Source: Stramenopiles sp. TOSAG23-6 (taxonomy: Eukaryota > Sar). From it: a stretch of DNA of 32,369 nt. The DNA lies in NCBI GenBank assembly GCA_900128565.1, contig LT635957.1, positions 472-32,840 of the forward strand. Direction: 5' to 3'. The position numbers were made by a program, and so were the translations under genes. Within the stretch, counting starts at the first letter, position 1, and each line of letters starts with the position of its first letter. Shown here one piece after another: positions 14,901 through 32,369 of the stretch. Below the pieces are notes generated by a model, which was not told where the DNA came from, did no database searches, and saw only the letters and a list, made by a program, of their open reading frames with translations.

Positions 14901-17900
14901 CAATCTGTACAACCAACCGACTTCCTTGTCGAGAAAAGTCGCGGCGTACTAAAGGATACAGCATAGGTTCGACACCATCTACTTCCATTAGCATTAACGT
15001 TTTTCCAAATCGCACAGCTAACTCCACTTGGTTTGCAAATCGAGGATCTTGGGACGGTAAGCATTCTACGGTAACACCACTTTTTTGTAAATGTCCTTTC
15101 AACCAAGATGTTGCAGCAGAAGACGGGTCAATAATGAAAGGTGTCCTCTTAGAATTCAAGATAACTATACTATTTTCCATTGTTAGATTGTCAGATGGCA
15201 AACCTGCTGCTTTCCAGGTTAATTGCTCACTTTCAGATGATAAAACAGAGCGAAAATCAAATGAATCCAAACCTGTGATTTTCGTCCATACCCTAGTAGC
15301 TTGTCTACGAATATTTTCATCGCTTTTTGCTAGATATGTGACAAAGCCTGCAGCTAAAAGAATGCGATATGGCAAATCTTGTACCTCAGAACGAAGTTGT
15401 TTCACTGTACTCTCCCACCGAGATTGTTCACCACTTAATTTTCCTAATAGAGTTTCTGCTTTTTCAAGTACAATTTCAGTTTTTTCTAAACTTGAGCGAG
15501 TTTGTTCAGCTTCGCGTGTCTTTTGTGCAAACTCTTTCTTTAGTCGATTTACTTTATTTTGTATTGTCTTCAGCTCCTTGGCATTACTTTTTAACTTCTC
15601 GGATGCATATTTTAATTCGGAATTAGCTTTGTCAAGCTCTTCTTGCAGAGGCATAACAGTTTCTAAAACTACAGAATATTCAATGTTTGCCTTGACCCAT
15701 TCTGCAAGAGGTGCAGCAGCTATAGATACACGACGAATCGCTTTCTTTTCAAATGAATTCGGATTCTTCTTCATCGTTTTACCAACTAATTTTCTCATCT
15801 CTCTTGTGATTCTCGCAGTATCAAAATTTAAAATGTCGTCCTTTACTCCACGTTTTCCTAGGAAGTTCCTCATCGATAACCAAGAAGTATCATTAATTCC
15901 AAGCAAAGTCAACACCGCAGATAAAACATGTCTAATAGGATCTGGTGGTGTCTTTAAAGAACGAATTTCATCAAGATTCTCGCTCTTAATCTGACCAACG
16001 GCTTTTTTAGCAGCATCGAGTACAGGTTGAATCCCACTGAGCTCTTCTTCGATAAGACCTTTACGTTTATCTGTTTTGCTCTTTGCCGCAGATAGAACTG
16101 TTTGCAACTCAGTAACTTCACTCTTTCTTTCAGATGCAAGTTCTAATGCCTCAGTTATCTTTACCATTGCAGCATCGGCCTCCTGTTGTTTTTCCGCTAA
16201 TGTAGCTCTCTGCTGAACAGCATTCTTTGAAAGTTCATCAACTGTCATCGATGCTTCCTGAAGTTTTGCAAGTCCTCCCTCCATTCGATTTGCATTGCTC
16301 AAAATATCAACTTTCATATTTTCATATAGTATAAGATACGTTTCGAGAAAACTCATGAAATCACGGGGGGTTGCTGTGTCCGTTTTCCTTCTAAAAAATG
16401 CATTTTCACTATCTTCATCGTCCCCGCATAAAAGGCAACTTTTATGTATATCAACCATACTCTGAACTAAAGTATCGCTATCTGCTACTTCTTCGAGGAA
16501 ATCAGGCATTAACAGTTTTGGTACTACAAGCATTGAGGAATACTCCCATTCACCAAACCATTGTATTGAGCATCTCGTAAACAAAGCTGGATTACTCATG
16601 CACCTCTGTCGAAATTCAGGTGAAATGTGGTCCATACCCAGGGCTATATGTACGTTGTCACGACATCTTTGTACAAAATAATCAAAAGCTGTTTTATACA
16701 CCATATCTAGACCTCGTTCGTTCATTTCCTCTTTTAATGGGGAAAGTAACTGCTCTAATTCTTCATGTGTATATAAACCTGAGATTTCTCCAGCAGATAA
16801 TAAAGAATTCACTGACTGTAAAATATAGTCACCGATGAAGTGATAATCTTCTAAATAGAACACAACTGGTCGACCTTCAATCCCACCTTCAAATAAAACA
16901 TTTTTTAAATCAACATGAAATGATTTTTGAGAATATCTCCTAGTTATAAATGGTGTAATGAAACGAATATCCTGCATAAATGCACATAGTTGTACAGTAG
17001 TTTTCCTACCACACCCGCTACGACCAACAAGGAGAAGAGAACCTCCTGGTCTAGACAAAACCCGATCTACTCGAGAAATATGTTCCAACACTTCAGTGAA
17101 TAGTAATAATGTTAAATCTTTTTCCTCGCGCTCATATAACAACTTACCTCGCTTCACAACATCAATAAAATCAGATTCACTCACTCGTATAAGTTTCCGA
17201 AAAGATTGTTCGGTCATATCACTTTCTTTGTTTTCGTCTCCACTTAGGACTTCACCATTATCTTTGCCTTCAGATGCATGCTTTCCTTCTATTCCATTCG
17301 AAGAAGAATCTTTCACTAAAGTACTAAAGAAAATATTTTCTAGATCAATTCTATGGGACCAATCTTTTCTAAACAATGCGCTTAATATGGTGTCAAACTT
17401 CTTTTCACTAGACGAATCAACTAAACGGTCCTTCATTAGACGCCTTGCCTCGTATATCACAACATCGAGAAGTGATTCGATACTTAAGTCATAATGACCA
17501 AGGCCTAGAACCCAATTTGTAAGATCTCTTGGTGTGAGTAGATAATGTCGGTGCTCATCTACAGTGAACTTTGCTCGAATTTGCTCATAAAATTTTACCA
17601 TTGTACTTGCCAATTTCTCGATATTTTTGACTTGTTTGAACGCTTTATCAGCATCTCTTAAGGCAACACCGGAAAGAGCAGCACGTAAGTATATAGTATA
17701 AATGTAAGACAATTCGTCCGGGGTTGGTTCCTCCATGTAGGCTATATTTACAATGGCCGTGAAACGTGATGATAGCTGGTGTCTACCCAAAGTTGTGGCT
17801 GGATTAATAGAACATACTACGACTACACGATCTAGACCAAGAAATTCCAAATCGTCGTCGTAAAAACCTTGAAAAGTACAAAGCTGTTGTAAAAACGCGA

Positions 17901-20900
17901 CGAGCATACTTGTATTATACTTATCAGGTTTCGATAAATTAATATTTTTCAAGAAAAGAACTAGTCTTTCACAGTCACGGGGGCGTAATACTCTACCGGT
18001 GTTTGTAGAGAATACACCACACGATGATCGTAGTTTTTGAATGACATGCTCAGCAGTTGTGCGTGCATTACAATGCAATGTACAAATATTTGTATTTTTG
18101 TGACTTCCCAACACTTCTTCTATCAATGCAGATTTACCGGAACCTTCAGGCCCGACAATTATAAAAGGTTTCATATTCTCTGCCCAAGTTCCTACCATTG
18201 TGACATTTCTTTGGTATGCGGCTGTCGGTATTACAATGCCTCTACGAAGAGTCTTTGGATCGAGTGATATGTGGGGAGCATGTGATATGTACTGTATCAG
18301 TTTATGTGTTTTAGAATCCCAGACACTATTTAAGGGATCTTCTGGATCAGGAGGACGCTCATTGGCCCAACTAAATAATTGTGTTGCTAGATTTGCACGA
18401 TCTTCTGTTACGAGATTTCCACCTAAACCTCGAATAATTGCGCGAATAAATTGGGCAAGTTCCGTAACATTTTCTAAATGAGAAAGTCCATTATTTACCG
18501 TACCAACCATTGTAGTATCAACGACAAATCTATCAAGGTCTAGGACCCATTTTAATGCACGATAAAAGTAATCATCAATCCAGCTAACCATAGCCAATTG
18601 ATTGGCGCTTGGTAAAGTAGAAAGCCATTTTCTAACTAACCTCTTTACGTCTACATCTTCATCGGATAGAAATATCATACCCATCCTAGATATTGTTGCT
18701 GGTGATGCGAATTGTAAGTCATGTGTCTCAAAAAGAAAATTGACATTCGGTCCAAAATTTATTCTTTCCCCACTTGGAAGAGTTAGCAAATGATTGTCAT
18801 CCAATACAGAATTTAAAGACTCAATCCATTCAGGATCAACGTCACCATCACAAATAATCCAACTTCGAACATTCGAAGGTTCTTTGACTACCTGCTTCGC
18901 AGCTGATGTAAGTACGCCATCAAACCACTCTCTCGTATCTAAATCCATATGTCCCAGTAATAGTTCTCTGGGCATCGATTTCGGATTCATCACATATGTT
19001 TTTAGTTCCTGACCACATTTTATCATTGCTTCTTTCAGTACCCGCCAAACTGTACTTTTACCACACCCAGAGGGCCCGACAATGACACAACCCATTCGCT
19101 GATCTAATGACTCTTTCAATTGTAACATTTTACTTAATTGCCCCTCATCAAATTCCAATGAACCTCCAAAGGCACCATCGTTCTGCTCCATTACAGCTCG
19201 TATTGCATCCTCAAGTTTCGGTACGGCAATGTCTTCAACCTTGGCGTTTGGAAAAATATCGCTACATAACCCAACGAACCGACTCGCATCTTGGTAAGTT
19301 AATTTAGATAAAGTATTCACCCGAACAGATTTGATAAGAATTTCTTCTTCTGCTGTTTCTGTGATTGTAGTCTCGCCCGATTCTGCTTTCAAGTTCTGAA
19401 TAAGTTTTCCACCTGTGACTAAAATAGATTTTAGAGCGCGAAGTCCCCAATCATAATGTTGTTGAGGGCTTAACAGTTCTTTACTCAGACCAAACAAACT
19501 ACATATCTTCTTGCCCAATTCTTTTGCATGTTTGAAACCTTCGGAGTATAAGATCACATTTGCAATAAGCTCATTATCTGGTCTCGACATTGCAACTGGT
19601 CTGAAAAGTTGCTTCAAATTATCGGGAAGTTTTGACCTTCCCCCATATCCTTTTTTAGGTGGGTTTAAAGTAACAAATATACCTGCATTGGAATCCACTT
19701 GAATATTTCGTCCAAGCAAAGACATTCTTTCATCCTTATTTTTGATTGCAGCTTGAATTAATTGAATCTGTTGTGACACAGCAGATAACTGATCTTCTTT
19801 TAATCTATTAAATTCGTCGAAACAACCCCAAGCTCCACATTTAACCAAACCGGTAAAAATACGACCCATCGATTGAAAATCAATCCCCTCGTCGCAATTG
19901 AATACTAAAACTTGTCTACCTAGAGCCGCACCTAATGCTTTTACAGATTCTGTTTTCCCTGTACCAGCAGGCCCATAAGGATTACCCCCGTAACCTTGAT
20001 GCATCCCTTGAGTGAGTGTCAAGTAACACTTGTCTGTTAAAGGTGTATGTACTAATTTCGATGCATTACCTTGATACTCATATGTATAATTAAATTGAGC
20101 ATTGCTCATTTTCGCAATACATAAGTCTCTTTTGTTCATATAGAAGCGCAATTGTTTCTGCCATGACCATGTATTTATCGACGGACAGCCATTTTGTATT
20201 AAGTAATCAACAACGTCCATATTATGAATCAAATCTAACACCATCGCCTTAACTTTAATGCGAATTAGAGGCTTTCCGGTGAGGTCATAGCTTGTGTAGG
20301 TTTGTAGTGTTTCTGCCAATTGAGTTTTTAGTGATGCTAAATTTCCATTATGTATGGCAGCTTCTGTTCTCAAGGTGAAATTAACTATTTCAGAGAGACA
20401 AAGAACTTGCGATGCAAATCGAGTCATATCAAGTGATTTCATAGCTAAACAATCTACAAGTTGCGTCTGCAGAGCATTTTTACTCTCCTCTTGTAGTACA
20501 ATCAACCATTCCTCTGTTTCTTCAGAAACCGGGACTGGGTCAGGCAGTTGAACAACTTCTCCCTTACCTGACTTTATTGCAATGATTTTTGAATTGTCCT
20601 CATTAAACTCAACAGTTTGAACACCTTGGAATAGCTTCTTTAAATGAGCCTGTATAACAGTTGGATTTTTAGCTTGACCAAGAATTTCTAATAAATCTTC
20701 ATCGCCAATAAAATAAAATCTTGGCATTTTTTCACGTTTTTGTTCCAAGAAATCCGCCAGTGCTTTTGTACATCTTTCGAGCTGTTCGAGTAAAGCTTCA
20801 ACATTCGATAATAAATTTGGGTGTACAGAAGAATCACACAATGTTAAAACTCGTTTATCGTCTTCAACTTTCGACATTATATCACGAAATTCGTCGTCAA

Positions 20901-23900
20901 TTCTTTGAAATCTTTGATGTTCATGAGGCAAAGCACCACGTCCAAAGATTGGTTCTAAATAAAGCCATTTTCGTTGAATTAAGTTAAGATTATGTAAAAT
21001 TTGATCTAAATCTGAGAAATTCTTCTCGAATACAGATGCTTCTGCGGCAAATGCACGAAAGTATGGCGAATCTTTGAGTGATCCAAGTAGCGATTGATTG
21101 TCTCCTAAAGCAGTGAAAAGATCTTTCCATTCAGTCAGGAGCATTGTCGTTCTACCCAGCTCTGTGTGTTCAAACAGAACAAGCTCAGCCGAGGCACACC
21201 AGTCTTTCAGCTCTACCATAGCCTCGCGGATACGAACTTCGCCAGTAGCTCGGGCAGTAAGGTCTCGGCAAAATTTGTCACTTTTTGCAACAGCTTCTAA
21301 TCGATCCAGAAAGTGCCCTGCATTGAGATTCTCAAGTCTAGTGCCCTTTGGGATTCCAAGTTGACGAAACAAAGAAGCCCAATGAACTTCATTAAATGGT
21401 ACATCACCTTTACAGAATTTAAGTGCAGGTAACGCAGACTTTAAAATGCCAAGCACTTCCTTCAAATGTATAGAAACAACATCTTTTTTTGTTTTGACTT
21501 TAGGTAACCAGTTTTGTACAAAATCAGATAATTCGTAAATCCTTGTACGAAAATTAATCCAATCTTGGACACGAAATGCTTCCCATTCTTCTAGATATTT
21601 TTGCATTAAACTCCAACTCTCCTGGGTTTCTTGCATATCAGCCTGTAATTCTGTTAATGTTGGAAATTTTGGCACAGGCATATCAAAATGTACACAATTA
21701 TTTTTCAGTGTATTTACTTCTTTAACTTTTTCTTCCATTTGTTCTTGCCAATCTTCAAGAGAATCAAATATACCTTGAATTGTTTCTGGATTCCAATTAT
21801 TGACTTCTCCCTGAGGCTTAAGTGCATGCCATCGTAAAGCTAATTTCTCAACTGATTCATTAGCTTCTTTTATGCGCATGTCAATTTCTCCTTTTAACGT
21901 TTCACGTTGTTCCTCCACCAAGTCATTAAAAGCCTCCATAGCAACTTCAAAATTTTCCCATCTGGAAGGAAGCCTTCCGAGACGAACACGAACCTCTTCA
22001 ACATCAACTCGATTACCAGCGACACTAATGAGTAATTTTCTTCTTTCATCCGCTCGCCTCATTTCCATCTTTATTGACTTCTTTGAACCAGATAATTCTC
22101 CCCATGCCTTTTGTGCAAGACCTATTTCTTCTATAGATGTAGGTCTGGAGTTGAGTTGTTGCATGCCATTATCAAGGAACTCCTCAACTGTTGAAACCAT
22201 CCGCAGTACAGATCTTTTCAGGGAAAGCAGAAGAGCATCACTCATTCGTTGTATATGATCTTCTACAGCTGATTTAAATGGCGCTGCACTTACATTAATA
22301 CAATCCAGCTTGTAAAATTCTGGTAGCTTTTCGCTTTGTTTTAATCTTTTTTTTAACATTGCAAAATTAACTTGATACTCAGCCGCAGAGCTTACGTTTT
22401 CTTCGACATATTCGTCCATATCCGGAACAGTGCCCAATGCCACCCATAACTCTAAACCTTGTTTCAATTCCTTCAAACGCCGAAAAAGATCTTCTGCCTT
22501 TTTATATACCTGTATTAGACTTTCAGCATTTTCTTTTTCGATACTTTTATAGACTGCTTTATTACCAAAACCATCAAAAGCAACGGGTATAGCTAAAAAC
22601 CGACGCAATTCACGAAAATATTGTGTACGTATATCTTCTATCGCAGGACGGAATTCTAGACGTCGCTGAGTGAAACATAATTCAACCTTAATTTCCAACA
22701 TATTTTCATTCAAAGATTCAAGACCCATACAATATCCAGCTTCGAGTGCTTTACACAATTGATGATCCCAATGTAACTTCCAATTTGCCATCCTTTCTGT
22801 AGGATATTTTCGAGTTAAATCAGAGACCTTATCTCGCATATCGAACCATTTACTTTTCCATTGATCTCTTTGGCGCAGTAAATCGATATTCATTAACTCC
22901 GCAGTTTGCACTGCCAACTGCATATGTATTTTACGCAAACTTCTATTTTCCTCAGACAGTGCATTTGCAGATAGTTGTAAATGCTCCACAAAGTCTTGAC
23001 ATTCTCGAGGGTTATTCCAAGTAACAGCCTTTTTTGCCCCTCGCTTGTTTCCTCGATGTAACTGGTTTTCAAAACGCTTCAATGCATCTAGCAGCATAGG
23101 CTTCTGTGTGACGACAATTTGATTTCCCATTGAGTTGTAAAAGTTAGCTATCTTTTTGAGCATTACTCCATATCGGTAATATTTCTCACCATCACTTGCA
23201 ACGCCTTTGATTCTCGAATTCACTTGGTGACCAAGATCTTCAAGTTGTCTAACTTCCCTCAAAAGTCGCACAAGCTTTTCCGAATAATTTACAATGAGCT
23301 CTCCATCGACATCAATTTCCATTAATTGGCCCGAAACTTCCAACGAAAGCTCGCCATCATCAAGTAGGTATTCCGTAGCATCTACCCAATTTTGAAATTC
23401 GTTTCGACGCCAAGTACGCAATTTTTCCATGAGTTCTTGAATCATTCCCTTGAAATCGTCGTATAAAGAGAGATCTGACAGAATATGTCTAGACCGAGTA
23501 AGTAGTCCTCTCATTCGAGCTTCACATTGTTTGGCCCATACTATATTATTTGTGACTATCGGAAGGTTACGACCTAATGGAGCACCTGACGATACATTAG
23601 CAGAAGATTTACTCTCTCTTTGGTGCATCGCACGAGATTGGTCTTTGACAGACTCGTAATCTTGGTCGCACTGTTCAACATATGCTGATAACTGAGCGAG
23701 TAAGGTTTCTCTCTCTCCATGTAGAGCCTTTGCAATTGTACGCCGCCCAAGAAGTTGCCGATAGCGAAGAAATTCTCTGAGCAACTGCTGCGGATGTTCG
23801 GACATCCCTGAAATTTGTTTCCTTAGATTAGAAGCGATATGTTGCTCAATGGGTGCTAGCTGACGATCATGCATAGCAACTGCATCTTCCCAGCGAGATT

Positions 23901-25098
23901 TTGTATATGGATTATAGTGCAAAGGACGTAGATCCGAAGCATTAAATGGATCAAATGCAGAAGCAACATTGAGTTCACGCTGTTCTTGTATTGATAATAA
24001 ACGTAACAATTCTTCGTGTGTTGTGCGAACTTTTAGTATACTTTCTAATCTCTCGGATAAATTTTTTATGTGCTGCTCTTCATAAGCAGCACCTTCCCAA
24101 GGATGCTCCTCACAGGATGGCCAGAAAGACCCACTTAGATCTGCAGTCACAAGTGACCATCTTTCACAAACAAGAATAGCTTCCTGTAGACGACTCGCAA
24201 CTTCCGCATATGCACCCTGCCATATATCAGTTGAACCGAGATAACTGGAAACATATCGAGCCAATGCACTGGCAATCACAGAAAATATATGTTTCATGCG
24301 ATGTTGAGGATACTGAGATGACTGCCGAACATCTGCTTTCCAAATATCATCGAGACAGTTTTGTGTGTCATCCACTAATTCTAAAATATCAGGCAAAGTC
24401 ATTGTTAAATTATCACCCATTTCGTCTACCTTACTTATACGTTGGAACCGACTTGAAATTCCCGAGAATATTTCTGAAAACTTTTGAGCTGACTCACCAT
24501 TCGTACGATTATTGGCTAGCATTTTCCAAACGTCGAACTCGTCAGATGGAACGAGGATAGAAGCCATAGCTTTTTTGTCGTGAATATCAGCTAACTCTGA
24601 CGAACCTCTTCGTACTAATGAACCTAAACCCGAATCCATAACAGCTAATAACTTTTGCATCTTTGGTGCCATTTTTGTTGACCAAGATTTATCACGTAAA
24701 AGCATTGGTGCATAGACCCGATGAGTTGCATTATATAATGCATGTATTGGAGAATCTAACATAGAACTAACCATGATAACTTGTGCAAAGTTGTCGTCCG
24801 TAATAGGAGTAGGTCTTAACTTTACAAAAAGTACCTGGGAACAACGGAAATCTTTGCCGTCCCATACTGTATCGCTACGCATTTTATTCGATAAAACAAT
24901 TTCCGGTGTTGAGTTGTTTTTTGTTGGTATTGAGCATATTACTTGCAAAAGAGAGCAATTTTCATTCTCTAGAAATGTTGTCACTGCTTTAGACGATTCG
25001 ATACAATCTCGTACTTTACTAGAGGTTTTAGAATCATCCAAGTATCCAAGCAGTGTACTCGCAGAAGTAATTATAAACTTTCGTCGACTGTCACTCAT
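11950..25098 (-). CDS. DYNC2H1: Cytoplasmic dynein-2 (IFT dynein) heavy chain
   Basis: A 4382-residue protein in one uninterrupted 13.1-kb frame, from an ATG at 25096-25098 to a TAA at 11950-11952. It drives retrograde intraflagellar transport, moving IFT trains from the ciliary tip to the base. The N-terminus carries dynein-2 signatures such as KLRP-x-x-ITDDN and VSSMLDSPI...APMLLRD. The linker is followed by six AAA modules. P-loops are visible in AAA1 (GPAGTGKT, about residue 1709, with Walker B GCFDEFN), AAA2 (GPSGCGKST, about 2007), AAA3 (GPEGSGKS, about 2315) and AAA4 (GRSGCGRKT, about 2691). The stalk coiled coils and microtubule-binding tip span about 2920-3230. The C-terminal end, W-ILAGVALFLEDC, fits the dynein-2 C-terminus. 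The length is close to the roughly 4300 residues of animal DYNC2H1. Two Gly/Lys/Glu-rich 'EGK' insertions look lineage-specific. The call as dynein-2 rather than dynein-1 or axonemal dynein is firm. Confidence 0.97.
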   Translation of the reverse strand: MSDSRRKFIITSASTLLGYLDDSKTSSKVRDCIESSKAVTTFLENENCSLLQVICSIPTKNNSTPEIVLSNKMRSDTVWDGKDFRCSQVLFVKLRPTPITDDNFAQVIMVSSMLDSPIHALYNATHRVYAPMLLRDKSWSTKMAPKMQKLLAVMDSGLGSLVRRGSSELADIHDKKAMASILVPSDEFDVWKMLANNRTNGESAQKFSEIFSGISSRFQRISKVDEMGDNLTMTLPDILELVDDTQNCLDDIWKADVRQSSQYPQHRMKHIFSVIASALARYVSSYLGSTDIWQGAYAEVASRLQEAILVCERWSLVTADLSGSFWPSCEEHPWEGAAYEEQHIKNLSERLESILKVRTTHEELLRLLSIQEQRELNVASAFDPFNASDLRPLHYNPYTKSRWEDAVAMHDRQLAPIEQHIASNLRKQISGMSEHPQQLLREFLRYRQLLGRRTIAKALHGERETLLAQLSAYVEQCDQDYESVKDQSRAMHQRESKSSANVSSGAPLGRNLPIVTNNIVWAKQCEARMRGLLTRSRHILSDLSLYDDFKGMIQELMEKLRTWRRNEFQNWVDATEYLLDDGELSLEVSGQLMEIDVDGELIVNYSEKLVRLLREVRQLEDLGHQVNSRIKGVASDGEKYYRYGVMLKKIANFYNSMGNQIVVTQKPMLLDALKRFENQLHRGNKRGAKKAVTWNNPRECQDFVEHLQLSANALSEENRSLRKIHMQLAVQTAELMNIDLLRQRDQWKSKWFDMRDKVSDLTRKYPTERMANWKLHWDHQLCKALEAGYCMGLESLNENMLEIKVELCFTQRRLEFRPAIEDIRTQYFRELRRFLAIPVAFDGFGNKAVYKSIEKENAESLIQVYKKAEDLFRRLKELKQGLELWVALGTVPDMDEYVEENVSSAAEYQVNFAMLKKRLKQSEKLPEFYKLDCINVSAAPFKSAVEDHIQRMSDALLLSLKRSVLRMVSTVEEFLDNGMQQLNSRPTSIEEIGLAQKAWGELSGSKKSIKMEMRRADERRKLLISVAGNRVDVEEVRVRLGRLPSRWENFEVAMEAFNDLVEEQRETLKGEIDMRIKEANESVEKLALRWHALKPQGEVNNWNPETIQGIFDSLEDWQEQMEEKVKEVNTLKNNCVHFDMPVPKFPTLTELQADMQETQESWSLMQKYLEEWEAFRVQDWINFRTRIYELSDFVQNWLPKVKTKKDVVSIHLKEVLGILKSALPALKFCKGDVPFNEVHWASLFRQLGIPKGTRLENLNAGHFLDRLEAVAKSDKFCRDLTARATGEVRIREAMVELKDWCASAELVLFEHTELGRTTMLLTEWKDLFTALGDNQSLLGSLKDSPYFRAFAAEASVFEKNFSDLDQILHNLNLIQRKWLYLEPIFGRGALPHEHQRFQRIDDEFRDIMSKVEDDKRVLTLCDSSVHPNLLSNVEALLEQLERCTKALADFLEQKREKMPRFYFIGDEDLLEILGQAKNPTVIQAHLKKLFQGVQTVEFNEDNSKIIAIKSGKGEVVQLPDPVPVSEETEEWLIVLQEESKNALQTQLVDCLAMKSLDMTRFASQVLCLSEIVNFTLRTEAAIHNGNLASLKTQLAETLQTYTSYDLTGKPLIRIKVKAMVLDLIHNMDVVDYLIQNGCPSINTWSWQKQLRFYMNKRDLCIAKMSNAQFNYTYEYQGNASKLVHTPLTDKCYLTLTQGMHQGYGGNPYGPAGTGKTESVKALGAALGRQVLVFNCDEGIDFQSMGRIFTGLVKCGAWGCFDEFNRLKEDQLSAVSQQIQLIQAAIKNKDERMSLLGRNIQVDSNAGIFVTLNPPKKGYGGRSKLPDNLKQLFRPVAMSRPDNELIANVILYSEGFKHAKELGKKICSLFGLSKELLSPQQHYDWGLRALKSILVTGGKLIQNLKAESGETTITETAEEEILIKSVRVNTLSKLTYQDASRFVGLCSDIFPNAKVEDIAVPKLEDAIRAVMEQNDGAFGGSLEFDEGQLSKMLQLKESLDQRMGCVIVGPSGCGKSTVWRVLKEAMIKCGQELKTYVMNPKSMPRELLLGHMDLDTREWFDGVLTSAAKQVVKEPSNVRSWIICDGDVDPEWIESLNSVLDDNHLLTLPSGERINFGPNVNFLFETHDLQFASPATISRMGMIFLSDEDVDVKRLVRKWLSTLPSANQLAMVSWIDDYFYRALKWVLDLDRFVVDTTMVGTVNNGLSHLENVTELAQFIRAIIRGLGGNLVTEDRANLATQLFSWANERPPDPEDPLNSVWDSKTHKLIQYISHAPHISLDPKTLRRGIVIPTAAYQRNVTMVGTWAENMKPFIIVGPEGSGKSALIEEVLGSHKNTNICTLHCNARTTAEHVIQKLRSSCGVFSTNTGRVLRPRDCERLVLFLKNINLSKPDKYNTSMLVAFLQQLCTFQGFYDDDLEFLGLDRVVVVCSINPATTLGRHQLSSRFTAIVNIAYMEEPTPDELSYIYTIYLRAALSGVALRDADKAFKQVKNIEKLASTMVKFYEQIRAKFTVDEHRHYLLTPRDLTNWVLGLGHYDLSIESLLDVVIYEARRLMKDRLVDSSSEKKFDTILSALFRKDWSHRIDLENIFFSTLVKDSSSNGIEGKHASEGKDNGEVLSGDENKESDMTEQSFRKLIRVSESDFIDVVKRGKLLYEREEKDLTLLLFTEVLEHISRVDRVLSRPGGSLLLVGRSGCGRKTTVQLCAFMQDIRFITPFITRRYSQKSFHVDLKNVLFEGGIEGRPVVFYLEDYHFIGDYILQSVNSLLSAGEISGLYTHEELEQLLSPLKEEMNERGLDMVYKTAFDYFVQRCRDNVHIALGMDHISPEFRQRCMSNPALFTRCSIQWFGEWEYSSMLVVPKLLMPDFLEEVADSDTLVQSMVDIHKSCLLCGDDEDSENAFFRRKTDTATPRDFMSFLETYLILYENMKVDILSNANRMEGGLAKLQEASMTVDELSKNAVQQRATLAEKQQEADAAMVKITEALELASERKSEVTELQTVLSAAKSKTDKRKGLIEEELSGIQPVLDAAKKAVGQIKSENLDEIRSLKTPPDPIRHVLSAVLTLLGINDTSWLSMRNFLGKRGVKDDILNFDTARITREMRKLVGKTMKKNPNSFEKKAIRRVSIAAAPLAEWVKANIEYSVVLETVMPLQEELDKANSELKYASEKLKSNAKELKTIQNKVNRLKKEFAQKTREAEQTRSSLEKTEIVLEKAETLLGKLSGEQSRWESTVKQLRSEVQDLPYRILLAAGFVTYLAKSDENIRRQATRVWTKITGLDSFDFRSVLSSESEQLTWKAAGLPSDNLTMENSIVILNSKRTPFIIDPSSAATSWLKGHLQKSGVTVECLPSQDPRFANQVELAVRFGKTLMLMEVDGVEPMLYPLVRRDFSRQGSRLVVQIGEKTIDFNEKFVMYMVTRNPNPSIPPDAASLITVVNFTVTKSGLEGQLLGATIQHEKPELEKQKSDMLQREESFKVQLASLEKDLLKTLAESSGNLLENQDLIDSLTQTKIKSKEIMIALEESTKASEELDSQRDVYLDFARDGAQLFFLVKQLQNINHMYQFSLQSYLGLFNATLDTKVTYETIHERLKVLTPLLIQRTLFYVGRSLFKADRQMWAIHLVHGMYPNEFEENEWEFFGGYLAPDLRARGEPKGFPSWAPRERASTFRLFSDTFPELVSRLELLDSDMWSKWSRSATCERNFPKKMAQKLSAFQRLLTVQVLRPDRLQSAMDVFACELLGLSSISPTPTNVSRLHQEESSCETPILFIVTTGVDPCKDLQDYAAQTVGEDNYFEMAMGGGTQDKAIRLLQRCAERGTWLCLKNLHLVIAWLPVLEKTLNSLHSHKNFRLWLTAESHDKFPTILVQQALKCTVEAPPGVKKNLQRTYDSWNEEFVSAGSGKRSQVMFLLAFIHAIVQERRNYIPQGWSEFYEFSLGDLRAATNVIESALKSSDTSGGGRESKHGGAVHGLWNTVHGMMENALYGGRVSNIFDMRVLKAYLSFYFSDAMLSGNIEIPSIGLSIPKSSNHGEYFSFIGRLPDSDAPSLFGLPANIERSAQRANSTRIIKDLKRLKRSSGEHSAFNQDVWRAQLGPVIDTWEKTLKNSKANGSLISPRYNEGKSREGKDEGKNNFEGKSKSFEGGAFDPESPVSQFVQMELAGASSLMHIVDGDLKAVKQVLHGNALLTPAIANTARCLMNSIVPVRWDRKWEGPETPQVYMSAVAAKCEAVHHWRELINSKSLLDSPLNLADLLHPGTFLNALRQETSRVTKCPLDDLKLISAWDRSLVKGSLKVCVEGLLLQGAVFTDKVLEEANVNDLELMSAPTCYIGFVPNDTVEPYGSENTLHAPLYYNTSRERLLTELGLPIKGQREKWILAGVALFLEDC

Positions 25099-25421
25099 TG
25101 TGGTTTGCTTTACTTTGAGAGGACTACAAACGTATTCGGGATAGAGCTAATCTCAAAAAGCCTGAGCAATATCAAGGTTAAATAAGTTCACTTTTAAAGG
25201 AAGATATACAAAGATGATGAACAAAAAGAGTTTGGCGAGCTACTACTAACCAATCTAGCCTACTTATAGTGAATATTTTAACGTAGTATTGCCTAAATGT
25301 AACTGTTGTTTTTCCGTTTCATCTCCGAACTACGAGTCCTACGTTATTAAACGGTTGGTAGGGTACCGCTAGTTAAAGAAGGATTTCATAATCTGTAGAA
25401 CGTGCGCCGCTGATACTAAAA
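25099..25421. promoter_or_regulatory. Shared divergent promoter region
   Basis: These 323 bp lie between the start codons of the dynein-2 gene (leftward) and the two-barrel/NTF2-like gene (rightward), so both promoters and 5' UTRs must fit here or upstream in coding sequence. I recognise no TATA box, known ciliary X-box or spliced-leader sequence. The segment is moderately AT-rich, without long repeats or coding potential. Confidence 0.55.
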
Positions 25422-26612
25422 ATGTCAAATTTTTACCTGGTAGAACAAAAGTTTAAAGCTGGAAAAGCTGAGGGTTGGTGGAAAAGAATATTCGAATTAA
25501 AGAAGTCTGTCAAAGAAACGAAAAAATTTATGGATATGGCAAAATCATTAGGCTACTTCCTTCATTCTCTCAATGCAAGCGATACTAAATCTACCATTTG
25601 GTGTTTCTGGGAAGTTAAGCCCACCAATTCAGAACACGACTTATACAAATTTATCAATGGCCCCCATGGTCTTTCATTTGGTTGCTGCTCTAGTATTTTC
25701 CATTCTATTCCTAATGATATTTTACATGGAGGTACTGTGTATAAACAATATTTCTCTAATGACAAATACGTCGAGCCTATAATCCTTAACCCGGGAGAAA
25801 ATCCATCGCAGTTTTACATCGTGCGCCATGATCTTAAAAGACACCATCAAGACACTTGTTGGGATTTTTTTTCTACTCTAGGGAAAGATTACAAGAAGTT
25901 GACGGCAACTCTTGAATCGTGGGATCTTCTTGGTTTTCACAACCACTCCTTCAACCCAATAGGACCTGAAGGTCCTTTTTTTAGCGTATGGGAAACTAAA
26001 CCGGACAAAACACATAAAGATTTCGACGATTTTCTAACGCATACTTTTTACCCACTTGGCATCACTAGTGTATTGAATCCAATTGATCACACGTTATCCG
26101 GTTTAGCGGGAAGTTTAACACCATATCCTCGTTTTTTCACCGATGCTGGAATGGAAATACGAATGTCAATTGAAAATCACTTTAAAGGCATCCAAGAATA
26201 TAATATGTACCAATTGAAGCACGGATTCAATGAGCAACGGTTTAAAAAAACATGGTCAAAGAGTACATCATTAAACGCGGAGTTTATCGGACCCAACGGG
26301 AGGGTGATAACATTTGAAGATGTCATTAAAGCTAAGAAGAAGGAAGAAGACCTTACAGAAGTTCATCAAGAGTTATTTAGCATAGAAGATATAGTTATTT
26401 TACCCGGCAAACTTTCAGCTTACGTGCGCTACGTTGAACACAGTTTGTGTAAGGTCGGAGGTGTAACCCACGACGTCCACGTAACTTGGACAGCAGTTTT
26501 GCTAAAAAGAGGTCCAGGGTTGTGGATGATTTATGGAGGTCATAGGTCGAGAACTCATGGAGCCTTAAAACAACCACCAAAAGAAGATGATGCAAGGGTA
26601 GTATTAGTATAA
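25422..26612 (+). CDS. Protein with two alpha/beta-barrel-like repeats and a C-terminal NTF2/SnoaL-like domain
   Basis: A 396-residue protein from an ATG at 25422 to a TAA at 26610-26612. Two related segments are visible. Residues about 4-95 begin FYLVEQKFK, contain LGYFLHSLN and end in WCFWEVKP...FINGPHG. Residues about 131-225 begin FYIVRHDLK, contain LLGFHNHSFNP and end in FSVWETKP...FLTHTFYP. The spacing suggests two ferredoxin-like alpha/beta barrel (ABM-type) modules that could pair within one chain. Residues about 243-377 (HFKGIQEYNMYQLKHGFNE, GPNGRVITFEDV, AYVRYVEHS, WTAVLLKRGPGLWMIYGGHRS) match the order of an NTF2-like SnoaL/DUF4440 fold: a helix with a W, strands, then a closing W-x-I-x-GGHRS. 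There is no signal peptide or TM helix, so it is probably cytosolic. Fold calls come from pattern only. No catalytic function is assigned. Confidence 0.8.
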   Translation: MSNFYLVEQKFKAGKAEGWWKRIFELKKSVKETKKFMDMAKSLGYFLHSLNASDTKSTIWCFWEVKPTNSEHDLYKFINGPHGLSFGCCSSIFHSIPNDILHGGTVYKQYFSNDKYVEPIILNPGENPSQFYIVRHDLKRHHQDTCWDFFSTLGKDYKKLTATLESWDLLGFHNHSFNPIGPEGPFFSVWETKPDKTHKDFDDFLTHTFYPLGITSVLNPIDHTLSGLAGSLTPYPRFFTDAGMEIRMSIENHFKGIQEYNMYQLKHGFNEQRFKKTWSKSTSLNAEFIGPNGRVITFEDVIKAKKKEEDLTEVHQELFSIEDIVILPGKLSAYVRYVEHSLCKVGGVTHDVHVTWTAVLLKRGPGLWMIYGGHRSRTHGALKQPPKEDDARVVLV

Positions 26613-29338: not shown

Positions 29339-29603
29339 CAGGGCTGGCATCGGACGAAATCGGCCGGTTTCGTTCCATTATAATTTATAATGGCGTTCCA
29401 TTCCATTACATTCCATTCCATGAGAGCGCCGGGGATTTCGTGTATAATGGAATGGAATGCCATTATAGATTTTCAGATTCCATTATAATGGAATGGAATG
29501 GAATGGGATTTTTTTGGAAAATTTATAATGAGCCATTATAATATATAATGAAATCTCATTATATTATAATGAAATCTCATTATATTATAAGCCTCGTATT
29601 ACC

Positions 29604-29618
29604 TAGGGTTAGGGTTTT
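29604..29618 (-). repeat. Interstitial telomere-like motif inside the hAT element
   Basis: TAGGGTTAGGGTTTT, the reverse complement of AAAACCCTAACCCTA, is almost the same string as the box at 11046-11062. It may be chance or captured sequence. Confidence 0.35.
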
Positions 29619-29812
29619 CCCCTTTATTCCTTAAAAAAAAAGATCACATAAACAAGTGTAATTTCACTAATATTCAATATTTTTCTAAAGTAAATAGCAG
29701 TAAATGATCCCATGATTACATGCAATCTTCCTATAGCCTTCTTGTGTACACTATATTTGTGAAATTACATTTTATTTTGTTGCTGCCAATTTTTTTTTTT
29801 TTTTTTGGTTTT

Positions 29813-29837
29813 CGTAGTAAATTTTGTACCTAACGAT
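29813..29837 (+). repeat. Shared motif copy A (inside the hAT element)
   Basis: CGTAGTAAATTTTGTACCTA followed by ACGAT, directly after a 17-base T-tract. It matches the motif found in the introns at 31397, 31551, 31872 (inverted), 31951 and 32306, but lies outside any gene. Confidence 0.7.
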
Positions 29838-29890
29838 TTTAGCTAACGATTTAGAAAATTATTCCATTATAACGCAAAAAAAATTGGGTT

Positions 29891-29990
29891 ATAATGGAAT
29901 GGAATGCCATTATAGATTTTCAGATTCCATTATAATGGAATGGAATGCCATTATAGATTTTCAGATTCCATTATAATGGAATGAAACTCC
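29891..29990. repeat. About 41-bp tandem repeat inside the hAT element
   Basis: The unit GGAATGCCATTATAGATTTT plus CAGATTCCATTATAATGGAAT occurs twice in tandem here and once more near 29443-29500 in the left half. Each unit contains the palindrome CCATTATAATGG. This subterminal repeat structure is typical of hAT elements. Confidence 0.75.
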
Positions 29991-30038
29991 ATTCCATTTT
30001 TTGATTTCGTGTTATAACGGCGTCCGATGCCAGCCCTG

Positions 30039-30046
30039 CTCACGAG
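30039..30046. repeat. hAT target-site duplication, right copy
   Basis: CTCACGAG directly follows the GCCCTG terminus and matches 29331-29338 without mismatch. Confidence 0.9.
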
Positions 30047-30184: not shown

Positions 30185-31364
30185 ATGAATGATTCAGAAA
30201 TAACCGAGCGTAGCTCACAGTTAAATATTTGGTTAGATGAACTTTCAAAAACCCCAACAGCAAAGCTTTTGGGAATTAGCCCTGCTGAACGTGACGAATT
30301 ATTACGATTACGAGACGAAAATAATTCTTTACAGATGAATCTTGAGTCAATTGAAGATGAAATTTCAAGAAAAGAAAAAGTATTGAGAGATACCAAAGTA
30401 AAAGCTGCTACAGGGAGAAAAGAGTTACAGTCTGATTTAGCTCCATTTGCTAGAGTCCTCCAAGACCTGGAGGTTGAAGAGCGAGTATTACGACACAAAG
30501 TTATAAAAGAGAATAAAGTTGCCGAGTTAAAGGAGTTTCTAGAGCGCCAGGAAGCATTACGAAAGGAGGAGGAGAAAATGAAAAGAAAGTTGGAAGAAGC
30601 AGAGGACGAGTTACAAGAACTGCGTGATTCCATTGCCAGTGTTGATCCTGGAAGTTTACTGCCAAATCAACTAAAAAATATTGCATTGTATATAAAATGG
30701 AAAAAACTGCTCGCAAAGAAGAATAAAATGGAGAGAAAGAATCGTGAAGAATCGTACAAAAAGATGGAAATCGAAGAAGCCAAAGAGGAGTTGGACATTA
30801 TCGTAAAAGAAATGGAGAAAAAGGCTGAAATTTTGCAGATAGAAGCAAAAACTAAAGAACATGAAGATGCAATCAATGAATGTAACACAAGAATTGCAAC
30901 AATGGAGATGGGTACTAAAATAGCTATGAGCGAAATGCAAAGTTTTGGTGAAGAATTTAAGAAAGTTAGTGCCGCAATTAAGAAAAGTAAAGAATTGAAA
31001 ACAAAAGAGTTACATGATCTTTTACAACATAAAAAAAAATTACAACAAGCGGAATCATGGTTTAATGAGCTAATGAAGAAGGAAGTAGATCAAATACGCA
31101 AACAAGTATCTGACAAATGGAAAATCATTCTCCAAGAGCAACAAGATAAAGCAGCGATCAAACTTGATGAAGAACGTCAATCTTTCAAATCTAAAATAGA
31201 GAATGCAAAACATGAGTTGGGTGTAAAATATTCAGGTGGGTTTGAAACACTTTTAAATGCAGCAAAAGAAAAATATTTAGTTGCCAAAACTGAAGCAGAA
31301 CAATTACAACAGGAGGTTAATCATAAAAAAATACTTGTTGATCAAGCTGAAAAGGATATTGTAT
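30185..31364 (+). CDS. Coiled-coil protein or N-terminal exon of a coiled-coil/Iml1 gene
   Basis: The frame opens at an ATG (30185) and encodes about 392 residues to the intron boundary near 31360-31364. After a short N-terminus (to about residue 40) it is almost continuous heptad-like coiled coil rich in Glu, Lys and Leu. There is one break around 152-175 (PGSLLPNQLKNIALYIKWKKLL), where a Pro/Gly turn precedes an amphipathic segment. No family is recognised. The residues encoded after 31364 turn into poly-Phe/Ile from a T-rich intron and should not be counted. With the strong donor at 31361 (GTATGT) and the acceptor at 31467-31468, the protein would end at once (KDI-A-stop). With the donor four bases later (31365, GTTTTA), the frame continues into the Iml1 exons. 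The gene starts 139 bp to the right of the hAT insertion. Confidence 0.7.
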
Positions 31365-31468
31365 GTTTTATTTTTTTTCAAATTCGTTTTTTTTTTCGTA
31401 CGAAATTTTGTACCTAATGAATTTTTTGTTTTGAAATATTTTTCCAAAATACATGCGTTTCACCACAG
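31365..31468 (+). other. Intron 1 (T-rich, introner-like)
   Basis: Boundaries are either GT at 31361 or GT at 31365, with AG at 31467-31468. The second choice keeps the frame open into exon 2. The interior carries T-tracts, the CGTACGAAATTTTGTACCTAA motif (31397-31417) and the string GAAATATTTTTCCAAAATAC. All of these recur in the same order in the intron that starts near 32271, so the two introns are copies of one sequence. Confidence 0.65.
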
Positions 31469-31525
31469 GCTTAAATCAAATGGTGTTTCTCTGTCAACGG
31501 GTGAATGCACGTTTTCATCATGAAT
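31469..31525 (+). CDS. Short exon leading into the Iml1/DEPDC5 domain
   Basis: This 57-bp exon reads, in the frame that joins the next exon, LNQMVFLCQRVNARFHHE, followed by a split Ser codon. The final E before S/A-V-N-L matches the 'LEAINL' start of the conserved Iml1 segment, which supports the frame. The upstream part has no clear match. Confidence 0.5.
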
Positions 31526-31635
31526 GTATTACTTTATAGTTTTCTTTTTTCATAGTACATTTCGTACCTAACGATTTTTTTTTTTTTGTAAAATTCTTGT
31601 TTTTTTTCACAATACATGTGGTAATATTTTAGAAG
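31526..31635 (+). other. Intron 2 (T-rich, introner-like)
   Basis: Donor GTATTA at 31526 and acceptor AGAAG ending at 31635 give a clean GT-AG intron of 110 bp that joins ...FHHE-S to VNLTLN in frame. Using the nearer AG at 31631-31632 would create a stop. The intron carries the shared motif CATAGTACATTTCGTACCTA at 31551-31570, followed by AC and a long T-tract. Confidence 0.7.
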
Positions 31636-31827
31636 CTGTAAATCTCACACTCAATATTTTTGATGTTTCCTATGTTGATCGAAATTTAGGTAGTAGTGGT
31701 ATGACCATTCAACTACTCACAGCTTCAAATGGAACATTTCGTGTTGACACAGACTTGAGTGATTTAACACATGCGCGCATGAAACGATCTGGTGTTGGAT
31801 GTGATTGTATCTGTTTTGACTTGTACG
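31636..31827 (+). CDS. Iml1/DEPDC5 (GATOR1 subunit) exon
   Basis: The exon encodes VNLTLNIFDVSYVDRNLG, then SSGMTIQLLT, then FRVD-x-DLSDLTHARM and GVGCDCICFDLY. This matches, motif for motif, the conserved N-terminal domain of Iml1/DEPDC5 (animal form: AINL-x-x-NVFD-x-HYINRNFDRTG, then ITPG-x-GVFEVD, LT-x-QRM, GIGVDLVC). Iml1 is the core subunit of GATOR1, the Rag GTPase-activating complex that restrains TORC1 at the lysosome or vacuole when amino acids are scarce. The domain's usual upstream part is not present in the preceding exons. The remainder of Iml1, including the DEP domain, would lie past the window end. Confidence 0.8.
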
Positions 31828-32045
31828 GTATTCACTTACATTTCATTTTTTTGTTTTTTTTGTTTTTTTTTGTTAGGTACAAATTTTACTATGAAAAAAA
31901 TATTTCAAAAATATTTTTGAATTTGTATTCACTTATTTCATTTTTTTTTTCATCGTACATTTTCATAAAAACAAATTTTATATCTAACGATGTTTTTCAA
32001 AAATATAACATATTTTTCTACAATATTAACGTCCTTCCCACCCAG
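31828..32045 (+). other. Intron 3, with inverted copies of the shared motif
   Basis: GT at 31828 and AG at 32044-32045 give a 218-bp intron that joins DLY to VPLF in frame. Inside, the shared motif appears inverted at 31872-31893 (GTTAGGTACAAATTTTACTA) and direct at 31951-31992 (CATCGTACATTTTC...ATATCTAACGATG), so the intron can fold into a long hairpin. The VPLF on the far side matches the 'HAVPLF' of Iml1, which supports the junction. The three codons just past the donor read GIH and might belong to the exon if splicing is non-canonical. Confidence 0.75.
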
Positions 32046-32270
32046 TACCTTTATTTATTTTTAATCCAAAGAATACAAAATCTAAAATAGACAGTAAATC
32101 TTCAGAGCATTCTTCAAGTCGGTCGCGACGAACTCATAATCGGACTCACTCTCGTTCAACATTTCGATATACTAAAAATAATACTAAAATATCTAAAACG
32201 TCTAAAAATAATCGAAACCCCAACCCTAATTATAAACATACTCAAAGATACGAAGAATCATTTGGTGCAT
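32046..32270 (+). CDS. Iml1/DEPDC5 next exon, with Ser/Arg/Asn-rich insertion
   Basis: The exon begins VPLFIFNPK, the expected continuation of the Iml1 domain. It then runs into about 60 low-complexity residues (SSRSRRTHNRTHSRS..., KISKTSKNNRNPNPNYK) where other Iml1 proteins have a short loop before a conserved H-W-x-x-x-S-F-Y segment. The exon ends at or near 32270, before GTATGTTTTA. Confidence 0.6.
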
Positions 32271-32369
32271 GTATGTTTTATTTTTTTTTTGTATGAATTT
32301 TTTTTCGTACGACATTTTGTACCTAACAAAAATTAAATTTTTTTTTTGAAATATTTTTCCAAAATACAT
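32271..32369 (+). other. Intron 4 (partial), copy of intron 1
   Basis: It starts GTATGTTTTATTTTTTTT like the start of intron 1, carries CGTACGACATTTTGTACCTA plus AC at 32306-32327, and ends at the window edge in GAAATATTTTTCCAAAATAC plus AT, the same string found at the corresponding place of intron 1. The acceptor lies outside the window. Confidence 0.65.

Follow-up and report, generated by a model that had tools for sequence, protein, structure and literature searches.

Introners in a stramenopile genome, probably removed as GT-AT introns with a 3' end taken from a duplicated 2-bp target

At the right end of the window, a 32,369-base stretch of DNA from Stramenopiles sp. TOSAG23-6 corresponding to the final 32,369 bases of contig C7 (472-32840), a gene on the forward strand (30185..32270) is interrupted by introns that share sequence with one another. 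The assembly analysed amounts to 8.03 Mb in 408 contigs and is probably partial. With exons at 30185-31360, 31455-31506, 31618-31827 and 32046-32270, as read from translation, the gene is open across 554 codons and runs on beyond the contig end; no Pfam match was obtained for its frame 30185-31417. Judged from sequence likeness, it holds three members (introns 1, 2 and 4) of one family of introners, i.e., introns derived from insertions of a single element, while intron 3, where only degenerate core-like remnants are seen, looks like an ordinary GT...CAG intron.

Intron 1 (31361..31454, forward strand, as are all features of this gene) begins with GT and ends with AT: an element at 31361-31452, matched by the family profile at 66 bits, is followed by AT at 31453-31454. 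Its core CGTACGAAATTTTGTACCTAAT (31397..31418), related to the exact 21-mer counted below, includes the branch-point-like motif CTAA(C/T). Intron 4 (32271..32369), likewise GT-AT and matched at 56 bits, has the core CGTACGACATTTTGTACCTAAC at 32306..32327; its end is the exact end of contig C7, and the exon downstream of it falls outside this piece of the assembly. A first-pass annotation had described a common 5' end GTATGTTTTATTTTTTTT, a core CGTACGA-ATTTTGTACCTAA and a block GAAATATTTTTCCAAAATACAT, in the same order, in introns 1 and 4, and all three are confirmed in the sequence. It had placed the end of intron 1 at 31468 (CACCACAG), which introduces several stop codons once the exons are joined; because of these stops, and because the shared sequence ends at AATACAT, the end has been moved to 31454. 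Intron 2 (31507..31617, GC-AT, GCACGTTTTCATC...CACAATACAT) is an older copy with a profile match to the 3' part of the element (31542-31616) and a branch-point-like motif GTACCTAAC at 31564..31572, and its removal restores the frame. The core had been claimed for introns 2 and 3 as well: it is present in intron 2 (GTACATTTCGTACCTAAC, with a diverged 3' block), while intron 3 displays merely degenerate stretches, namely TATATCTAACGATG, seen by eye, and a weak antisense fragment at 31870-31902 (E 0.0054). The latter is possibly an antisense insertion tolerated within the intron, or it may result from the core being nearly palindromic. Intron 3 itself (31828..32045, GT...CCCAG, 218 nt) has an AG end that keeps exons 3 and 4 open, and the one alternative end tried by hand met a stop.

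The same motifs occur throughout the assembly, in clear contrast to their absence from other introns, which had been named as a refuting outcome. The exact 21-mer core GTACGAAATTTYGTACCTAAC is found 343 + 318 = 661 times in the 8.03 Mb and the exact 3' end AAATATTTTTCCAAAATAC 300 + 283 = 583 times, with no match for either reversed pattern, these counts including redundant contigs and those in which copies are mirrored (C2, C27, C369 and C372). Searching the whole assembly with 31361-31468, as had been suggested, gave 46 matches (40 of 1543 first-look candidates scored), and copy 4 as query gave 41 (40 of 1502 scored). When a profile built from 34 copies was run on 152,632 nonredundant fetched bases, 86 matches reached E<1e-3, against none in a dinucleotide-shuffled version, and the likeness is therefore not a matter of chance. 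In three 10-kb stretches picked regardless of matches (L028-L030), 15 matches were obtained at the same threshold, ten of them within one stretch; by extrapolation from this small and uneven sample, young and old copies together may number a few thousand in the genome. The likeness is not confined to T-tracts, a doubt raised at the outset, since 35 young copies agree at a mean of 0.90 over the 42 non-T consensus columns; their median identity is 0.885. On this sequence evidence, the assignment to an introner family is well supported.

The consensus of these young copies can be written GTATGTTTTATTTTTTTTCAAATTCGA..TTTCGTACGAAATTTTGTACCTAACGAA..TTTTGAAATATTTTTCCAAAATAC, and the element ends can be sketched as GTATGTTTTATT...CCAAAATAC. 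Intact copies show a GTATGT 5' splice site from the first base (GTACGT in many older copies), a strongly kept GTACCTAAC about 38 nt upstream of the intron end, and a terminal CAAAATAC or CACAATAC. Among 93 full-ended copies in a later set of 194,047 nonredundant bases, the donor is GT in 87 and GTATGT or GTACGT in 72, CTAAC is found in 78, and the core is recognised in 85, its A lying at a median of 38 nt (range 21-48) before the intron end; as copy ends were located by likeness to GTAYGTTTT and the 3' block, these motif shares lean upwards. The length including the last two bases has a median of 96.5 nt (range 57-137) in 80 confident copies, 26 of which are divisible by three, as by chance; intron retention would therefore shift the frame in most copies.

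Regarding the boundaries, excision to two bases past AATAC (offset +2) leaves at least 25 codons open on both sides at 75 of the 77 junctions of confident copies with enough flank, against 20, 23 and 20 junctions for offsets 0, 1 and 3, and in 69 of them neither of the other two frames does better than +2. Offsets differing from +2 by three pass as well (67-74), and the exact splice point therefore rests on the repeat described below and on proteins. The longest frame across the junction is longer in the sense than in the antisense direction in 64 of 66 cases. A VIT1-like protein compared with 6iu3 and a Trm5-like protein compared with 5yac align without a gap at the junction, eight homologues align uninterrupted at both sites of two alpha-actinin introns, and the exon join of a DEAD helicase reads EPYIHRLGRTARA, which we take to be the motif expected there. 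The alignment of a kinesin with KIF4 is also gapless at the junction, yet KIF4 lacks two residues one position upstream, which makes this case weaker. By frame and homology, the element appears to be the whole intron, end to end; a GT-AT class of introns is well supported on the same grounds, from which we infer splicing itself.

The dinucleotide following the exact 3' end (n = 583) is AT in 515 cases, AG in 12 and another in 56. It could be supposed that the element is only the 5' part of a canonical GT-AG intron spliced to the next downstream AG. GT-AG introns do coexist in this host, as seen in intron 3 of the window and, by hand, in an in-frame intron of L012 (GTAAGT..TACTAAC..CAACAG); AG also follows the 12 exact ends just mentioned, and in 66 confident copies an AG lies no more than 30 nt downstream, the nearest being in frame in 29 (at +2 itself in three), somewhat above one third. 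Once these three are set aside, the remaining 26 of 63 are chance-like (p 0.18), 14 of 80 copies lack an AG in that range, and next-AG splicing at the first alpha-actinin junction would delete residues aligned by eight homologues. In the window, the CACCACAG acceptor leaves the stops noted above; this acceptor and the first-AG rule were rejected on the reading frame, and splicing to a downstream AG is most improbable. AG is scarce between the branch point and the intron end (27 against 58 expected), which is uninformative because it is scarce upstream too (30 against 86). Sixteen AGs located 10-19 nt past the branch-point A are apparently skipped, and the 3' end may therefore be set by distance or by the AAUAC context. 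Outside the family, an intron at L025 3386-3475 starts with GTATGT and has TTTTTTACAG near its end; by hand, a GT-AG reading breaks the frame between its flanking open reading frames (ORFs), and none of the simple boundaries tried fits.

The acceptor appears to originate from the target site. The dinucleotides flanking the element are identical in 65 of the 93 full-ended copies (permutation mean 51.6), and seven identical pairs are other than AT (0.75 expected); neither count was reached in any of 20,000 permutations, and identity over three bases is found in two copies only. Judging from this identity, the insertion duplicated a 2-bp target, and the two bases after the element are its second copy. 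The first-pass annotation had proposed looking for target duplications at the splice junctions, where they are indeed present, but it had overlooked both the missing AG and the origin of the acceptor in the duplicated target. Nearly all of the 37 young matched targets are AT, with G after them in 19 and C before them in 15 (36 with full flanks) and a complete CATG in 8 of the 37, which suggests a mild preference for G following the 2-bp target, usually AT.

Non-AT ends were considered separately in 14 stretches fetched around them, yielding 14 scored rows (none came from L038, L039 contributed two mirrored instances of a single copy, and L033 is the mirror image of one already included). Excision at +2 gives the best two-sided opening in 13 of the 14, the row that did not fit being L046, which contains unread bases; another offset is nearly as good in L034, L042 and L043, and the opening is short (21 codons) in L035. 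Matching non-AT flanks in these rows are TT, CT, AG (L039) and AG (L046). Six copies with an AG end have AT upstream and are probably AT-to-AG changes, while L035, L036 and L043 have unequal flanks of other kinds.

Owing to the AT/AT repeat, GT-AT and AT-AC readings yield an identical mRNA in most copies. The introns might thus be read as ATGTATG...AATAC, with the upstream AT as donor, and be handled by a minor-type or relaxed spliceosome. In the 37 copies scoring under 30 bits, the AC preceding the final AT survives in 18, and the final AT itself in 29, the GT donor in 33, CTAAC in 31 and the upstream AT in 23. The AC, which should be the acceptor, hence decays faster than the AT that follows it, and AT-AC ends are disfavoured. 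The 28 mismatched flank pairs lean the same way, AT being found downstream alone in 17, upstream alone in 5 and on neither side in 6 (two-sided p 0.017). The minor-type donor is ATATCC, which the donor found here does not resemble, being closer to GTATGT, and the conserved AT donor and AC acceptor of minor-type AT-AC introns were not encountered. The AT-AC reading is thus quite unlikely; the decay pattern favours GT-AT ends without proving them.

Orientation and placement are strongly biased. Of the copies scoring 30 bits or more (n = 63), 59 are sense-genic and 4 lie outside frames within 400 nt of a stretch end; none is antisense and none intergenic. Genic here means within reading frames of at least 100 codons with a 30-nt margin, i.e., 89.1% of the sampled bases. 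Random insertion followed by loss of antisense copies would leave about 20% in intergenic DNA, so that the probability of the observed placement is near 3e-6 for 59 copies (1.6e-4 for 40). In an earlier set of 94 matches (E<0.02), 80 were in sense orientation, 12 fell outside frames and 2 were antisense. Both antisense matches and about half of the 12 are core-only, and the remainder of the 12 are located close to a stretch end or within a shorter open frame. That strong copies are lacking from intergenic DNA points to insertion biased towards transcribed DNA, and sense-genic copies presumably survive because they are spliced out. The spread among genes is uneven: of the 59 frames with a length of 300 codons or more, 28 are empty, the total being 82 copies (chi-square 263, 58 degrees of freedom). 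Two giant frames of the window, 2-10807 and 11953-25146 (3,602 and 4,398 codons, the second encoding a dynein-2 heavy chain), have zero introners, and a gene at L010 523-3824 has 12.

This bias bears on two other explanations. Internal eliminated sequences, as in ciliates, leave by precise excision with one short direct repeat, and the loss of the element with one short direct repeat would fit such excision at the DNA level in place of RNA splicing. A DNA-level process needs no orientation or genic bias, a GT donor (33/37) and CTAAC (31/37) persist in weak copies, and the targets are not TA. Nor do the relatives of the dynein-2 heavy chain point to a ciliate: among the best 120 of 1646 matches, 14 of the first 15 organism-named ones are stramenopiles (Triparma, Heterosigma, Aphanomyces and Phytophthora among them), the remaining one is a dinoflagellate, and no ciliate is found among these 15; a stramenopile host is thus probable on this evidence as well. 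The two nearest among the matches listed are unnamed proteins (68 and 66%), and a EukProt relative prefixed PLAT (67%) may be from Platysulcus. DNA-level excision is very unlikely. Spread by reverse splicing into transcripts or transcribed DNA, with the flanking AT reflecting target preference together with the last bases of the intron, would account for strong copies being solely sense and solely genic and is compatible with the weak inverted repeats and with the failure to find a DDE_Tnp_4 transposase, the single family searched. Under this explanation, the non-AT flanks would not be expected to match each other as they do (GG/GG, AC/AC, GT/GT and TT/TT, also CT/CT and AG/AG), in the manner of a staggered-cut duplication, and reverse splicing is regarded as unlikely.

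Similarly, the copies could be self-pairing non-conventional introns of the euglenid, hemistasiid or Amoebophrya type, with paired ends. The pairing energy of the ends averages -2.26 kcal/mol in 80 copies, against -1.43 with shuffled 3' ends, but ends swapped between copies pair equally well (-2.31; in old copies, -2.04 real and -2.06 swapped), and there is therefore no sign of maintained end pairing. A core hairpin GTACGAAATTTTGTAC and end-pairing hairpins were rejected, the real pairing being no greater than the swapped, and this type of intron has very little likelihood here.

The explanation regarded as highly probable is that of an introner family in which the element and one copy of its 2-bp target are removed together as a GT-AT intron, the removal of both leaving an uninterrupted reading frame. 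The element would insert with a staggered 2-bp duplication, mostly at AT, supplying a GTAYGT donor and a CTAAC branch-point-like motif, while the target would supply the acceptor, normally AT. An ordinary U2-type spliceosome would then remove the element, the 3' end being the dinucleotide left by the duplication, and the second step would be AG-free, placed by the distance from the branch point, by the AAUAC context or by a modified reader of the 3' site. Spread may be that of a non-autonomous, cut-and-paste-like element. The idea that recent insertions of one element turned into introns, already put forward for this gene, is supported by the sense-strand placement of strong copies in genes and by the 2-bp duplications. 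As to a broader rule, by which mobile U2-type introns would accept any duplication dinucleotide after AAUAC (AT usually) alongside GT-AG introns, the chances seem even.

Several points weigh against this explanation. We infer the spliceosome's use of AT from reading frames, which counts as a limit; at +2, the frame does not stay open at 2 of the 77 junctions, and another frame does better at 8. The donor is not invariant, as the counts given above indicate, and the exact GTACCTAAC is found in only 67 of the 93 copies. In three of the six AG-ended copies with AT upstream (L037, L041 and L042), the donor is GC or GA, as though constraint on the donor had eased once the acceptor was canonical. 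Terminal inverted repeats amount to GTAT...ATAC and a weak T/A-rich similarity (6.5 of 12, against 4.3 when shuffled), and PF13359 (DDE_Tnp_4), the sole transposase family sought, gave no match, the control being positive in 1 of 14 genomes. U2 and U6 small nuclear RNAs were not found, although control genomes likewise gave nothing, which leaves the search without bearing on their absence. Most loci were chosen since their contigs had matches, L028-L030 (30 kb) being the exception, and the genic frames were defined after removal of the copies. In addition, no Rfam family reached its gathering score in the window and 11 loci, and the pattern for two neighbouring insertions gave 0 matches.

As in introners elsewhere, dispersed and highly similar copies are found in one genome (661 cores and 583 3' ends here). 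In the survey covering Micromonas and Aureococcus (Gozashti et al., 2022; PMC9860276), introners are near-identical introns with target duplications of 3-9 bp and enrichment in genes, with GC and GA as rare 5' sites; the element of some families, such as that of Chrysochromulina (Fig. 2C), carries the 5' splice site and co-opts its 3' site from the duplication, 4 bp in Chrysochromulina. The 3' site is co-opted in the same way here, from a duplication of 2 bp and with AT as acceptor; no non-AG 3' end was met in the part of that survey available. The canonical GT/GC-AG ends of introners are not those of this family (AT 515 and AG 12 of 583), a departure that is counted as a variant and not as a defining failure because the introners of Amoebophrya also lack canonical ends. 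The latter (Farhat et al., 2021; PMC7789003) are repeated introns with no clear dinucleotide signature, short direct repeats of 3-5 nt over their boundaries and inverted repeats of 8-20 nt forming hairpins; the present family resembles them in its repeated non-canonical introns with boundary direct repeats, and differs in largely retaining GT and CTAAC, in ending mostly with AT and in that an end-joining hairpin was not borne out. Introns of Fritillaria are mostly AG-A(N) according to PMC7789003, whereas here the 5' end is normal and the 3' end alone departs. For the non-canonical introns of Fritillaria borealis, a modified U2AF has been proposed (NAR 2026; PMC13326754), and by analogy it may be one candidate for the choice of 3' end here. 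In diplonemids and euglenids (RNA 2025; PMC12621601), a MITE-like (miniature inverted-repeat transposable element) origin has been suggested; border direct repeats in euglenids and (G)/GTATG donors in three diplonemids are as found here. The non-canonical introns described there lack GT-AG and have extensive end pairing, with YTRAY in 2.4-15.8% of introns per species, in contrast to CTAAC in 78 of 93 copies and end pairing without sign of maintenance in this family. Like a MITE or another cut-and-paste transposon, the element has a target duplication (2 bp); unlike one, its strong copies have no antisense or intergenic placement (0 of the 63 above), the weak core-only matches including 2 antisense and some outside frames. 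No introner family with an AT acceptor was found among the titles and opening lines of abstracts listed for introners and non-canonical introns, nor was the phrase 'GT-AT introns' in the literature searched, which covered few subscription papers or preprints.

Introners are a leading explanation of rapid intron gain; among the cases described in the sources cited, some co-opt AG, and Amoebophrya drops the signature at both ends. Here, the acceptor alone departs, in hundreds of near-identical copies with a common donor and branch-point-like motif, and this apparently adds a new twist to intron origin and recognition. Since the last two bases vary with the landing site, the copies form a natural variant series on what the second splicing step needs. 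If the proposal is true, a mobile element would have been freed from the AG requirement and be able to land at almost any genic AT. The lack of strong antisense or intergenic copies makes the choice of genes by introners testable, while gene prediction requiring AG would break most introner-carrying genes.

Some features of the assembly touch on the counting of copies. Contig pairs C13/C14 and C388/C69/C64 have zero substitutions across the shared parts compared, as far as fetched, and look like assembly redundancy in these parts. Inverted duplicates in contigs C2, C27, C369 and C372 carry introner copies placed mirror-image, as in single-cell amplified DNA. In contig C2 (L029 2393-2452; L034 = C2:31450-31970), one mirror arm has a full introner with CT/CT flanks and the other is without its second half (CTAAC through the end), a difference due either to an amplification artefact or to two alleles. 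Contig ends falling within an introner are found at the starts of C4, C18, C19, C21, C37, C43 and C45 and at the right end of the window.

Elsewhere in the window, a 396-aa ORF at 25422-26612 has no Pfam domain and no function assigned; in a search of 5.8 billion proteins, none of the 1336 candidates scored was a homologue at E<=0.001. An intergenic region at 29340-30040 is made of CCATTATAATGG / CCATTATAGATTTTCAGATTCC repeats, three exact words of which were absent from every other one of the 18 sampled loci searched, and includes a core-only introner fragment at 29804-29866. At L016 near 8124, at L026 1262-3827 and at about 32215-32235 of the window, there are telomere-like CCCTAA / CCCCAACCCTAA repeats between genes and, in coding exons, NPNPN runs of the kind encoded by such repeats.

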